DNA of 64,000 nt from Caldicellulosiruptor owensensis OL (lineage in GTDB: Bacteria; Bacillota; Thermoanaerobacteria; Caldicellulosiruptorales; Caldicellulosiruptoraceae): positions 550,501-614,500 of the forward strand of contig NC_014657.1 in the NCBI RefSeq assembly GCF_000166335.1, read 5' to 3'. The translations under genes were made by a program, and so were the position numbers. The notes under the pieces were generated by a model, which ran no database searches, was not told where the DNA came from, and saw nothing but the letters and a program-made list of their open reading frames with translations. This document shows positions 29,832-62,538 of this stretch, one piece after another. The first letter of the stretch is position 1. Each line of letters starts with the position of its first letter.

Positions 29832-29854
29832 AAAATCCTGCCAAATAAAGGGCG

Positions 29855-29872
29855 AGGGCAAAACCTTGCCCT
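29855..29872 (+). terminator. Terminator after fba
   Basis: AGGGCAA pairs with TTGCCCT over a 4-base loop, followed by TTTTCTTTT. Confidence 0.85.
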
Positions 29873-29888
29873 TTTTCTTTTGACAAAA

Positions 29889-29917
29889 TTGTATTGTAAA
29901 ATAGTTTGTGGTAAAAT
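29889..29917 (+). promoter_or_regulatory. Candidate promoter for the SCIFF peptide gene
   Basis: TTGTAT (29889-29894), a 17-base spacer and TAAAAT (29912-29917) lie upstream of the peptide ATG at 29996. A TTGACA at 29880 has no -10 at proper spacing. Confidence 0.5.
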
Positions 29918-29995
29918 ACTATATGTTGTTTATCCGCAAAATTAATATTTTATACGCAGCGAGAGTAATTTTTAAAAAGGAGGTTTGAGGTTTTA

Positions 29996-30139
29996 ATGAA
30001 GCATATAAAGGTTGTTGTAAAAAATGCTCTTTCAAAAACAGTTGTTACTGGCGGCTGTGGTGAGTGCCAGGCATCATGCCAGTCAGCTTGCAAGACATCT
30101 TGTACTGTTGGAAACCAAATTTGCAAAAACAGAAAATAA
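29996..30139 (+). CDS. scfA: SCIFF ranthipeptide precursor (six cysteines, 47 residues)
   Basis: The small gene encodes 47 residues with cysteines at 21, 24, 28, 32, 36 and 43. The core TGGCGECQASCQSACKTSC is the hallmark of the 'six cysteines in forty-five residues' family. In known members a radical SAM enzyme forms thioether crosslinks from cysteine sulphur to a neighbouring residue. The N-terminal MKHIKVVVKNALSK is the leader. An AAAAAGGAGGTTTGAGG site precedes the ATG. The maturase gene follows after a hairpin. The biological role of SCIFF products is still poorly known. Confidence 0.93.
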   Translation: MKHIKVVVKNALSKTVVTGGCGECQASCQSACKTSCTVGNQICKNRK

Positions 30140-30151
30140 TCTTCTGTAAGT

Positions 30152-30183
30152 GGGCTGTCAAAAAATTTTTTTGAGGGCAGCCC
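30152..30183 (+). terminator. Hairpin between SCIFF precursor and maturase genes
   Basis: GGGCTGTC pairs with GGCAGCCC (one G-U) around a 16-base loop. TTTTTTAATTT occurs 10 bases on. It probably terminates most transcripts so the peptide is made in excess over its maturase. Confidence 0.7.
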
Positions 30184-30242
30184 TGCGCAAAACTTTTTTA
30201 ATTTAAAATGTGATAAAGCAGGAGGAAGACAAATAGGAAAAG

Positions 30243-31604
30243 ATGGTTCATACGTTTGAGAAGTTCGGACTTAAAATTGTAGTGGATGTGGCATCAGGTT
30301 CAATTTTCACAGTTGATAGAGTTGCTTATGAGGTAATAAATTATTACAAAGAAAATGGAAGTTTTGAGGGAGTAGAAGATGCACTTGAGTTTGATAAACA
30401 GCAGATAGCTGAGGCAGTTTTTGAAGTAAAAAGCTTGATTGAACAAGGAGTTTTATTTTCTGAGGATATTTATAAGGATATGAATTTAATTGAAAAGAGA
30501 AATCCGGTTATAAAGGCAATGTGTCTCCATGTTGCTCATGACTGTGACCTGAGATGCAGGTACTGTTTTGCATCAAGCGGTACTTTTAAACAAGAAAGAA
30601 AACTTATGAGTTTTGATGTAGGTAAAAAGGCAATAGATTTTCTACTTCAAAATTCTGGTTCAAGGCAGAACTTAGAGGTTGATTTTTTTGGTGGAGAGCC
30701 ACTTTTGAATTTTGAGGTGGTAAAAAAAATTGTTGAGTATGCAAGGCAAGAGGAGAAGAAATATAATAAGAAAATATCCTTTACACTAACAACAAATGCA
30801 ACAAATCTAACAGACCAGATAATTGAATATCTAAACCAGAACATGGAAAATGTTGTACTCAGCCATGATGGAAGACCTGAAGTCAATGACTTTATGAGGA
30901 TTGATAAGGACGGTAATGGCACATATGACAGGATAACAGACAACATTTTGAGGTTTATCAAAAAAAGAAATGGGAAAACTTATTATGTGAGAGGAACATT
31001 TACAGCAAAGAACTTGGATTTTTCAAAGGACGTTTTACATTTATACAGCTGTGGGATAAAAGAAATTTCAGTTGAACCTGCTGTGTTGGACAAAAATAGT
31101 CCCTGGGCGATACGTGAGATTCACATTGAAAGAATAAAAGAAGAGTATGATATTTTGGCTGAGGAGTATATAAATGCGAAACTTAAAGGAGAAGGCTTTA
31201 GCTTCTTCCATTTCAATATAGACCTTACAGGTGGGCCATGTGTTTCAAAAAGACTTTCAGGGTGTGGTGCCGGGTTTGAGTATGTAGCAGTTGACCCTGA
31301 GGGTAATATCTTCCCGTGTCACCAGTTTGTTGACAAGCCAGACTTTAAGCTTGGTGATGTCTTTAAAGGTCTGCAGAGGTTTGATTTGGTTGAGGAGTTT
31401 ATGAAAAATACTGTTTATGAAAAAAATGAATGTTCAAAGTGCTGGGCAAGGTTTTACTGCAGTGGTGGTTGTGCTGCAGCAAACTATAATATGAACGGTG
31501 ATGTGAAGAAATCTTACATTGTTGGATGCGAACTTGAAAGAAAGAGGGTGGAAAATGCAATAGCTATAAAGCTTTATCTTATGGAAAAGGGGATTGAGAG
31601 CTGA
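30243..31604 (+). CDS. scfB: SCIFF-peptide radical SAM maturase (thioether-forming)
   Basis: The 453-residue protein has an N-terminal peptide-recognition-like region (residues 1-90). The radical SAM motif CDLRCRYC (CX3CX2C) lies near residue 104, with FFGGEPLLNF downstream. The C-terminal SPASM-type region carries many cysteines: GGPCVSKRLSGCGAGFEY, then FPCHQF, then CSKCWARFYCSGGCA, for auxiliary 4Fe-4S clusters. It fits enzymes that crosslink SCIFF precursors, and its substrate gene is 103 bases upstream. A GGAGGAAGAC site precedes the ATG. Confidence 0.93.
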   Translation: MVHTFEKFGLKIVVDVASGSIFTVDRVAYEVINYYKENGSFEGVEDALEFDKQQIAEAVFEVKSLIEQGVLFSEDIYKDMNLIEKRNPVIKAMCLHVAHDCDLRCRYCFASSGTFKQERKLMSFDVGKKAIDFLLQNSGSRQNLEVDFFGGEPLLNFEVVKKIVEYARQEEKKYNKKISFTLTTNATNLTDQIIEYLNQNMENVVLSHDGRPEVNDFMRIDKDGNGTYDRITDNILRFIKKRNGKTYYVRGTFTAKNLDFSKDVLHLYSCGIKEISVEPAVLDKNSPWAIREIHIERIKEEYDILAEEYINAKLKGEGFSFFHFNIDLTGGPCVSKRLSGCGAGFEYVAVDPEGNIFPCHQFVDKPDFKLGDVFKGLQRFDLVEEFMKNTVYEKNECSKCWARFYCSGGCAAANYNMNGDVKKSYIVGCELERKRVENAIAIKLYLMEKGIES

Positions 31605-31605
31605 A

Positions 31606-32121
31606 ATGATAATTTCTTATAAAGGCAAAACACCTAAAATTGCGCCCTCTGCTTTTGTAGCAGAAAATGCAGTGGTAATAGGGGATGTAGAGATTGGAGA
31701 AAATTCAAGTGTATGGTTTGGGTGTGTTATAAGATGTGAGGAAAATAAAATTGTGATTGGCAAAAACACCAATATCCAGGACCTTACAACAATTCACACA
31801 GACCACTGCTGTTCTGTCATAATAGGTAACAATGTTACAGTTGGTCACAATGTTGTACTTCATGGTTGTGAAATTGGTAACAATGTTTTAATTGGAATGG
31901 GAAGTATTATAATGAATCGAAGTAAAATAGGTGACAATTGTTTGATTGGTGCAGGAAGTCTTATAACTCAAGATATGGTAATTCCGCCAAATACACTTGT
32001 GTTTGGCAGACCTGCTAAAGTGATAAGAGAGCTCACGCCAGAGGAGATTGAAAAGATTTCGATTTCTGCAAAGGAGTATATAGAGCTTAGCAATGAGTAT
32101 AAAAAGGTAAAAGATTATTAA
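31606..32121 (+). CDS. Gamma-carbonic anhydrase-like hexapeptide-repeat protein
   Basis: The roughly 171-residue left-handed beta-helix protein has repeated hexapeptides (ENAVVIGDVEIGENSSVWFG; IGNNVLIGMGS). The histidines in TTIHTDH and VGHNVVLHG match the metal ligands of the YrdA/PaaY gamma-carbonic anhydrase-like group. ATG 31606 is chosen because it follows the maturase stop immediately; a TTG at 31594 would overlap. Trimeric metal enzymes of this type can hydrate CO2, but many members lack proven activity. Confidence 0.82.
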   Translation: MIISYKGKTPKIAPSAFVAENAVVIGDVEIGENSSVWFGCVIRCEENKIVIGKNTNIQDLTTIHTDHCCSVIIGNNVTVGHNVVLHGCEIGNNVLIGMGSIIMNRSKIGDNCLIGAGSLITQDMVIPPNTLVFGRPAKVIRELTPEEIEKISISAKEYIELSNEYKKVKDY

Positions 32122-32131
32122 ATTTTGTTTG

Positions 32132-32161
32132 TTGACTTTTTATCAAATCGAGGATTATAAT
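32132..32161 (+). promoter_or_regulatory. Sigma-A-like promoter for secDF
   Basis: TTGACT (32132-32137), an 18-base spacer and TATAAT (32156-32161) lie about 90 bases before secD. Confidence 0.65.
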
Positions 32162-32248: not shown

Positions 32249-33496
32249 ATGCAAAATAAAAACTTGGCAAAGTTTCTGATAGGATGTTTGGTTATAGCTT
32301 TTGCATTTTACATAGTATTTTTTGGACTGGAGATTGGAACTGCAAGTATTCCATCAGTTCAAAAAGTTATAAGGTATGGACTTGATTTGAAAGGCGGTGT
32401 TTACATTGTCTATGAAGCGGCAAAAGAAAATCCAACAAAAAGAGAAATGGAATCAGCATTGCAGCTTATCAGGACAAGGCTTGACATGAGAAACTTTTAC
32501 GATGCAACAGCAACAATTCAGGGTTCAAAGAGGATAAGAGTGGAAATTCCGGGTGTCAAAGACCCTGATGAAGCGATACAATATATAGGAAGAACTGCCT
32601 TGATTGAATTTAAAGGACCTTCTGGTGATTTAATTGTTTCAGGTAGAAACGTTGTTGATGCATATGCACAGCAGACAGCATCAGGATACGTTGTTGCACT
32701 AAAGTTTGACAAAGAGGGAACAAAAAAGTTTGCAGAAGGAACAAAAAAATATTTAGGGCAGAACATTGGAATTTATCTTGATGGGAAGCTTATTTCCAAT
32801 CCTGTTGTTCAGGCTGAGATTGACAATGGTGAGGCTGTAATTGAAGGTATGAAAAACTTAGAAGAGGCAAAGACTTTAGCCCAGCAAATTAAGGCAGGTG
32901 CACTGCCATTTGCTTTAAATGTAATAGAAAGCAAGGCAATAGGACCTTCACTTGGAAATGAGGCTTTCAAATCAACTTTAAAGGCTGGAATTATTGGAAT
33001 TCTACTTGTATTCCTGTTTATGATAATTTTCTACAGACTGCCAGGGCTTGTTGCAGATATAGCTTTAGTTGCTTATATAGTTATTTTGGTTGCGATTGTG
33101 GGGTATGCCAAAATAACTTTGACCCTCCCTGGTATAGCAGGTATAATCCTGTCTGCCGGCATGGCAGTTGACGCGAATATCTTAATCTTTGCAAGGTTGA
33201 AAGAGGAATTAAGAAGTGGAAAAACTTTAAGAGCTGCTATGGATGCAGGTTTTAGAAGAGCGCTTAATGCTGTTATTGACTCTAACGTAACAACAATAAT
33301 AGCTGGAATTGTTCTTTTGTTCTTGGGAACAGGTCCAATTAAAGGTTTTGCATGGACACTCACTATAGGTATTGTTGTATCGTTTTTCACAGCAATTACT
33401 GTTACAAGATTTTTGCTTACTTCAATTATAAATACAGGACTTTTCAAAGATGTCAGATGGTATGGTGGTAAGAAAACCAGGGAGGTGGATGCATAA
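32249..33496 (+). CDS. secD: Protein translocase subunit SecD
   Basis: The 415-residue membrane protein assists SecYEG-driven export using the proton gradient. It has an N-terminal membrane helix, the SecD signature GLDLKGGVYIVYEA, a periplasmic-type P1 domain, and a C-terminal RND-like bundle with LPGIAGIILSAGMAVDANIL and IFARLKEELRSGKTL. The length is typical of short clostridial SecD. A GAAAGGAGAAAGG site precedes the ATG. The stop abuts secF. Confidence 0.95.
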   Translation: MQNKNLAKFLIGCLVIAFAFYIVFFGLEIGTASIPSVQKVIRYGLDLKGGVYIVYEAAKENPTKREMESALQLIRTRLDMRNFYDATATIQGSKRIRVEIPGVKDPDEAIQYIGRTALIEFKGPSGDLIVSGRNVVDAYAQQTASGYVVALKFDKEGTKKFAEGTKKYLGQNIGIYLDGKLISNPVVQAEIDNGEAVIEGMKNLEEAKTLAQQIKAGALPFALNVIESKAIGPSLGNEAFKSTLKAGIIGILLVFLFMIIFYRLPGLVADIALVAYIVILVAIVGYAKITLTLPGIAGIILSAGMAVDANILIFARLKEELRSGKTLRAAMDAGFRRALNAVIDSNVTTIIAGIVLLFLGTGPIKGFAWTLTIGIVVSFFTAITVTRFLLTSIINTGLFKDVRWYGGKKTREVDA

Positions 33497-34429
33497 ATGA
33501 CCAGGATTGATTTTATAGGAAAAAGAAAATACTTTTATATAGTTTCAATTTTGGTGATGGTAATTGGATTAATCTCGTATTTAGTACAGGGTTTTAACTA
33601 TGACATAGACTTTACAGGTGGTACAGTTTTGGAGATAAATCTTCATAAAGTTCCGACAGCTAAAGAAATATCCGAGCTTGAAAAACTGACAAAGCAGATT
33701 ACAGGAACCCAGACCCCTATCGTTAGAAAAGTTGAGGATGGCAAAAAGATAATGATAAACGCACATGAGGTTCATGGTAAAAAGAAGACAGAACTTTCAA
33801 AACAGACAAGAGACAAGCTCTTTGCTGAGATTGCTAAAAGATATAATCTTAAAAAAGAGGATTTAGTATCATACCAAAATGTTGGTGCAGTTGTTTCATC
33901 TGAGTTAAAATCTCAGGCTATTTGGGCAGTTGTAATTGCCTCAATTTTGATGCTCATTTATATTGCTATCAGATTTGAGTTCAGGTTTGGTACAACTGCA
34001 GTTGCAGCATTAATTCATGACCTGTTGATCGTGTTGACAGTTTATACCCTTTTTAGAATTCCTTTAAATTCCACTTTTATAGCAGCAGTGCTTACCGTTC
34101 TTGGTTATTCTATAAACGATACAATTGTTGTGTTTGACAGGATAAGAGAGAACAGAAGAATCGCTGGAAAGATGGAACTCAAAGATCTTGTAAACCTTAG
34201 TATGAACCAAACAATAGGAAGGTCAATTGCAACAGCAATAAGTGTTATTATAGTTCTTGTTGTTCTATATATTATGGGTGTTCAGTCAATAAAAGAATTT
34301 GCATTTCCTCTTTTAATTGGTGTGATATCAGGTACTTATTCCTCTATATTTATAGCAACTGCCCTGTGGTTTGACTGGGAGCTCAGCACAAGAAAGAAAA
34401 AACTTCAGGCAAAACCTAAAAGAGCATAA
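33497..34429 (+). CDS. secF: Protein translocase subunit SecF
   Basis: The 310-residue partner of SecD has the SecF signatures YDIDFTGGTVLEI near the start and LTVLGYSINDTIVVFDRIRE in the membrane bundle. Six membrane helices are expected. It begins directly after the secD stop (no gap), with a GGGAGGTGGATGC ribosome site inside the end of secD, so the two are translationally linked. Confidence 0.95.
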   Translation: MTRIDFIGKRKYFYIVSILVMVIGLISYLVQGFNYDIDFTGGTVLEINLHKVPTAKEISELEKLTKQITGTQTPIVRKVEDGKKIMINAHEVHGKKKTELSKQTRDKLFAEIAKRYNLKKEDLVSYQNVGAVVSSELKSQAIWAVVIASILMLIYIAIRFEFRFGTTAVAALIHDLLIVLTVYTLFRIPLNSTFIAAVLTVLGYSINDTIVVFDRIRENRRIAGKMELKDLVNLSMNQTIGRSIATAISVIIVLVVLYIMGVQSIKEFAFPLLIGVISGTYSSIFIATALWFDWELSTRKKKLQAKPKRA

Positions 34430-62345: not shown

Positions 62346-62371
62346 AGAAGTTGAAAAATGAATATTGCAAG

Positions 62372-62522
62372 ATATCTCGGTAGGCGAGGCTCCTACAGGG
62401 ATATAGGCTGCTGCCGCGAAAGATTGGAGACAATCTTAGCTGGTGAACAGGTTTTGCCGAAACCAAGGCATAACCTAACGCAGCTTTTTATGCCGTGTAG
62501 TGCCAAAGCTTGTACGAGGTAT
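62372..62522 (+). ncRNA. M-box (ykoK) Mg2+-sensing riboswitch
   Basis: The conserved cores are present in order: GGTAGGCGAGGCTCCTAC, GGCTGCTGCCGCGAAAG, GCTGGTGAACAGG, AACGCAGC and GCCGTGTAGTGCCAAAGC. P1 closes with ATATCTCG (62372-62379) and CGAGGTAT (62515-62522). When Mg2+ binds, P1 forms and the terminator at 62539 folds. When Mg2+ is low, 62505-62520 can pair with 62547-62564 instead (AAAGCTT/AAGCTTT and ACGAGGT/ACCTCGT, 7 bp each), which breaks the terminator stem. The downstream gene is a magnesium transporter, as expected. Confidence 0.95.
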
Positions 62523-62538
62523 AAAGAGGGCTATAAGT

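Follow-up and report, generated by a model that had tools for sequence, protein, structure and literature searches.

The SCIFF pair and its neighbours

The window, a 64,000-nucleotide stretch of the genome of Caldicellulosiruptor owensensis OL, carries on its forward strand the gene scfA (29996–30139), for a six-cysteine precursor peptide, and directly downstream on the same strand, after a gap of 103 nt, the gene scfB (30243–31604), for a radical SAM/SPASM maturase. The 47-residue ScfA is close to the roughly 45 residues expected of a SCIFF precursor, and scores 78.7 bits against TIGR03973 and 81 bits against PF13165, where the curated cut-offs are 50 bits (NCBIfam) and 27 bits. Its translation places the cysteines at C21, C24, C28, C32, C36 and C43, and a Shine–Dalgarno sequence, GGAGGT, precedes the gene at 29979–29984 on the forward strand. 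The 453-residue ScfB scores 629 bits against TIGR03974, the SCIFF maturase model with a curated cut-off of 425 bits, carries the CX3CX2C motif as CDLRCRYC, and aligns over residues 1–444 with the solved protein 5wgg_A (E 3.2e-159). Counted by eye, 12 of 13 cysteines match in this alignment, and the C-terminal (SPASM) cysteines align. We take 5wgg to be CteB. Before scfB, a Shine–Dalgarno-like AGGAGG lies 17 nt from the ATG (30220–30225, forward strand), with a closer but weak AGGA at 30235. Judged by the curated models and by the recurrence of the pair in relatives, which support this identity, the locus is an ordinary SCIFF ranthipeptide pair with a predicted thioether product. The original prediction of such a locus, with a 47-residue, six-cysteine precursor followed by its radical SAM maturase, is borne out.

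Thioether crosslinks have been reported for two homologues, Tte1186a and CteA, with disagreement between the reports about the threonine involved, and a quorum-sensing role has been reported for SCIFF peptides in solventogenic clostridia, according to reviews (literature consulted: PMC8326336, PMC8102284, PMC3132745 and PMC4289311). Cys32, Thr34 and Thr37 of ScfA sit at the residue numbers given for the crosslinks of CteA and Tte1186a, within a core common to the sampled SCIFF peptides that reads approximately CGECQxSCQSACKTSCTVxNQ. When compared with the CteA/CteB and Tte1186a loci of thermophilic Clostridia, the locus shows the same precursor family, the same numbers for these three residues and a maturase aligned over 1–444; only the species differs, and the chemistry at the C. 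owensensis OL locus is predicted from the genes. Product and role had been called unknown beforehand, a description that is too strong for the family. The genus is not known to sporulate.

The pair is single-copy in the genome, with one match to the ScfB protein, one maturase above the cut-off and a single precursor-family match. A maturase above the cut-off is encoded in 55 of 61 genomes (this one and its relatives), and a SCIFF precursor in 313 of 398 genomes and 209 of 271 genera of the phylum, against none found in 14 control genomes. With the pair this common in the phylum, its presence in C. owensensis OL is unsurprising. Comparisons across the phylum drew on 118 genera, each represented by one locus from the best-scoring precursor matches, a sample that leans to typical SCIFFs; two places close to contig ends (G325 and G150) were omitted. 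Among the matches listed, scfA and scfB are not adjacent in six of the 118 genera. An scfA without an adjoining scfB was seen at L151, L167, L186, L193, L195, L209 and L226. In all seven searched genomes where scfA stands apart, scfB is kept elsewhere in the genome, so the linkage of the two genes is not obligatory.

Two genomes encode a second full-length ScfB above the TIGR03974 cut-off: G015, at L061:4001-5335, where it scores 634 bits, and G032, at L079. No SCIFF peptide was found in the 12 kb around either copy, and by its sequence this second ScfB is a maturase paralogue with no substrate assigned.

Upstream of scfA, the terminator scan called an intrinsic terminator of the fructose-bisphosphate aldolase gene (29847–29874, forward strand), an 11-pair stem followed by TTCTTTT, which separates that gene from scfA. 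Between the two, a weak candidate promoter, TTGTAA-17-TACTAT, can be seen by eye at 29894–29922 (forward strand), with 8 of 12 matches and thus below the scan threshold. Downstream, a gene for a gamma-carbonic-anhydrase-like hexapeptide protein (31606–32121, forward strand; NF050158 at 211 bits, below the cut-off of 250) has its ATG one base after the scfB stop. It is probably co-transcribed with scfB and stands outside the general SCIFF system. SecD (32249–33496) and SecF (33497–34429) follow in the profile scan, so this order of neighbours agrees with what had been predicted. So does the lack of an adjoining dedicated exporter or leader protease, none being recognised among the nine proteins scanned, with SecDF set aside. 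A promoter-like TTGACT-18-TATAAT with 11 of 12 matches precedes secD (32132–32161, forward strand; scan), and all 13 loci examined in the family have such a site before secD, in one of them shifted by a deletion. This suggests that secDF forms a separate transcription unit.

We considered whether these neighbours could be parts of the SCIFF system and rejected the idea: among the matches listed, the gamma-carbonic anhydrase gene is found near the pair in only 5 of 106 genus representatives and SecD in only 14 of 106, possibly an underestimate since the SecD search relied on a single thermophile query, and secD has the promoter-like site of its own. SecD is found downstream in 37 of 37 loci with scfA from the window's class. 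Both look like lineage-specific neighbours. In one species of the genus (L050) the gamma-carbonic anhydrase gene, about 1.36–1.69 kb downstream of where scfB starts, has lost about 0.3 kb internally and is out of frame, whereas both scf genes are intact. Among 82 next genes that were scanned (17 of 99 were left out by hand, mostly short ORFs), 28 encode M23-G5 murein hydrolases, 26 of these with a LysM match (for example L089:5515-6906 and L092:5655-7361). Other next genes encode SecD (nine), DsbD-type thiol-redox membrane proteins (six), molybdopterin oxidoreductases (six) and hexapeptide proteins (five). Elsewhere in the window, an M-box (magnesium) riboswitch lies at 62369–62527 on the forward strand (127 bits).

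The hairpin between scfA and scfB

The gap between the two genes holds a hairpin with the arms GGGCTGTC and GGCAGCCC (30152–30183, forward strand), which we propose as a leaky internal terminator, the 3′ terminus of a short scfA transcript, or both. It is not a canonical intrinsic terminator. The tail directly 3′ of the stem, TGCGCAAAAC, has a single T in eight positions, and a run of six Ts (30194–30199, forward strand) begins only after 10 nt and is not adjacent. The consensus terminator scan of the gap did not call the hairpin. The original prediction of a likely terminator therefore stands as far as an inverted repeat between the genes is concerned, and fails on the adjacent U-run and on the scan.

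Folding energy says little in favour of the hairpin: the gap only marginally beats its shuffles (z −1.83, with 6 of 200 shuffles equally good), and in C. owensensis OL a single-hairpin energy test chose a different hairpin (z 0.5, a negative result). Support for the hairpin rests on conservation instead. The 5′ arm is identical in all 12 species of the genus and the 3′ arm in 11, the exception (L052) having A in place of G, so that a U-G pair becomes U-A. Stem pairing is thus kept in 12 of 12 species, while the loop, the flanks and the length of the gap differ between two clades. A U-run is missing throughout: none of the 12 species has five Ts in the 8 nt after the stem, and the most is four.

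The stem is of a kind that recurs in this genome. The pattern GGGCTG-N10-24-CAGCCC occurs at 12 places including the scf gap, against none for the reversed control pattern, and its 11 other copies all lie close to an ORF 3′ end, at distances of 3–45 nt. All 11 have a T-rich tail on the ORF strand (at least five Ts in eight, a level that about 20% of random intergenic sites in the window reach by chance), and nine of them are T-rich on the opposite side too, by the same criterion. The scf copy lacks such a tail, so it resembles the usual terminator stem of the genome minus its U-run. As an observation on the genome itself, GGGCTG-N-CAGCCC is a recurring terminator stem, often T-rich on both sides (12 places, including L228-L238). 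Missing U-runs are not rare for hairpins of the window, since only 7 of the 13 strong hairpins in its 27 3′ gaps have five Ts in eight.

Several other identities for the element were considered and set aside. It is not a multi-copy repeat, as the complete hairpin is found nowhere else in the genome and the broader stem pattern represents a type of terminator. An enclosing helix that would hide the scfB ribosome site was dropped, being kept, by eye, neither in L055 nor in the other clade. A known regulatory RNA was rejected, with no Rfam match in the gap at gathering scores.

The scfA–scfB gap across the phylum

The gap was compared in the 106 of 118 genera that have scfA 25–400 nt upstream of scfB; the remaining 12 comprise five with a gap of 0–17 nt and so no room for a hairpin, the six with non-adjacent genes and one at a contig end. 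A regular-expression search for scfA left 25 loci empty, and a profile built from its hits recovered 22 of them. The start of scfB was taken from alignment to the window's protein, and scfA was assumed to begin 48 codons upstream of its stop; gap lengths may therefore be off by some codons. We counted as terminator-like any element with at least six pairs, at least four of them G-C, a loop of 3–10 nt and five Ts of eight.

Among the matches listed, such an element is found in 78 of the 106 gaps, against 5% in dinucleotide shuffles. It is also found in 40 of 121 control gaps, which were further same-strand gaps taken from these loci with a crude ORF caller (Fisher p 1e-9), and in 6 of 43 gaps after scfB (Fisher p 2e-11). 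When only gaps of 50–130 nt are compared, the counts are 53 of 74 for scf and 21 of 70 for the controls. The feature is therefore enriched at this position and not exclusive to it. Counting hairpins regardless of tail gives a weaker contrast (80/106 against 51/121, with 18% in shuffles), and a single-hairpin energy test puts 57 of the 106 gaps, among the matches listed, at z ≤ −2. Of the 106 genera, 28 fail the terminator test, including the window's own genus and three near genera (L059, L063 and L067) with strong hairpins and few Ts. A different hairpin lies at the same place in the gap of the sister genus and of many others. Across these alignments and counts, the gap hairpin is a real, recurring feature of SCIFF loci.

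Promoter signals fall on the other side of scfA. Sites with at least 10 of 12 matches occur within 100 nt upstream of scfA in 36 of 105 genera, against 2.6 in shuffles, and show no enrichment in the scfA–scfB gap (3 of 106 against 1.9). The terminator-like stems end at a median of 49 nt before scfB, 40 of the 78 within 51 nt. With promoter sites before scfA, not in the gap, and stems so near scfB, read-through is favoured over a second promoter.

A proposed control of the precursor-to-maturase ratio

We consider it rather likely that the locus works as an operon in which the precursor is made in excess over the maturase. In this model scfA, the hairpin and scfB, and perhaps the gamma-carbonic anhydrase gene, would be read from a single promoter upstream of scfA. 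The hairpin would halt part of the RNA polymerases, or would give a stable 3′ end to a short scfA message, and the remaining polymerases would read through into scfB, so that precursor mRNA would exceed maturase mRNA. Such an excess suits a substrate made in bulk, for which catalytic amounts of enzyme suffice. ScfB would then bind the leader of the precursor and, by analogy with the homologues, form a thioether between Cys32 and a nearby threonine. Leader removal and export would presumably fall to the general machinery of the cell. The earlier proposal of hairpin-controlled stoichiometry thus gains comparative evidence from the phylum, the genus and the stem copies, and needs amending in that the hairpin of this genus does not look like a canonical terminator.

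Precursor–enzyme attenuation is familiar from other RiPP operons, such as nisA-nisB and pqqA, where a short precursor message is in excess over the messages of the downstream enzymes. The scf locus would share this excess, as proposed here, and differs in its peptide class. A parallel in anatomy comes from the ABC-importer operons of cellulolytic Clostridia, in which stem-loops follow the first gene and were studied by Northern blot and qPCR of reporters; in Ruminiclostridium cellulolyticum, 16 such stem-loops terminate 20.7–96.1% of transcripts in reporter operons, according to PMC9045158. The scf gap has the same parts, a stem-loop right after the first gene and before the second with a U-poor tail, and for that reason we think it rather likely that the hairpin sets the precursor excess. 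A promoter in the gap is usually not predicted in either system (20.8% of the importer operons had one; PMC9045158). They differ in the first gene, which encodes a substrate-binding protein there and a RiPP precursor here, and in that termination was measured with reporters there, whereas the scf element is known from sequence. In that report, termination efficiency rises with poly(U) length and was 9.4% for a tail that lacked it. Given the missing U-run, termination in the genus may be very weak, and a stem kept without a U-run in all 12 species is what would be expected of a weakened terminator.

The main rival to a leaky terminator is that the hairpin does not terminate at all in this genus and instead shields the scfA mRNA at its 3′ end once an RNase has cut in the gap, so that message stability sets the ratio. 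Keeping the stem pairing while lacking the U-run in 12 of 12 species would suit such a role, as would the effect of hairpin folding energy on the stability of the upstream transcript described in PMC9045158. However, no cleavage site is known and, with a T-rich tail in 78 of 106 genera among the matches listed, termination looks to be the wider theme; we regard protection without termination as unlikely, though worth keeping in mind. It is less probable still, and in our view improbable, that the two genes are separate units, a normal terminator closing scfA and scfB having a promoter of its own. The genera in which the genes lie apart, with scfB elsewhere in every searched genome, agree with this, and at least three lone scfA genes (L151, L186 and L193) end, by eye, in a strong terminator-like hairpin. 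The lack of promoter enrichment in the gap speaks against it, although a promoter overlapping the hairpin would still fit, and so does the position of the stems, 40 of 78 of which reach to within 51 nt of scfB. We give very little credence to the hairpin being a functionless relic of an old terminator. The absence of the U-run in the genus would fit a relic, but the two arms still pair in 12 of 12 species next to a loop and flanks that have diverged, and the sister genus and many others have a different hairpin at the same place.

The leaky-terminator reading can be extended, more tentatively and with somewhat less confidence than we place in the operon itself, to an internal attenuator found throughout the phylum, whose position is kept while its sequence turns over and whose U-run tunes its strength. 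The window's genus would then represent a case where the stem is under selection and deliberately leaky. The kind of locus is already known, and the hairpin is a real, regulatory-looking part of it: we found no discussion of a terminator in SCIFF loci in the open-access literature searched and no SCIFF case of precursor–enzyme attenuation there, and SCIFF is absent from the main text of PMC6284299.

If true, conservation of this ratio control would mean that the cell requires the peptide in bulk, as expected of a secreted product or a signal, and it would concern common equipment, as most sampled genomes of the phylum (313/398) carry a SCIFF precursor. Ratio control of this sort is testable by simple reporter constructs. 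The gap hairpin may also serve as a position signal that helps to annotate short precursor genes.
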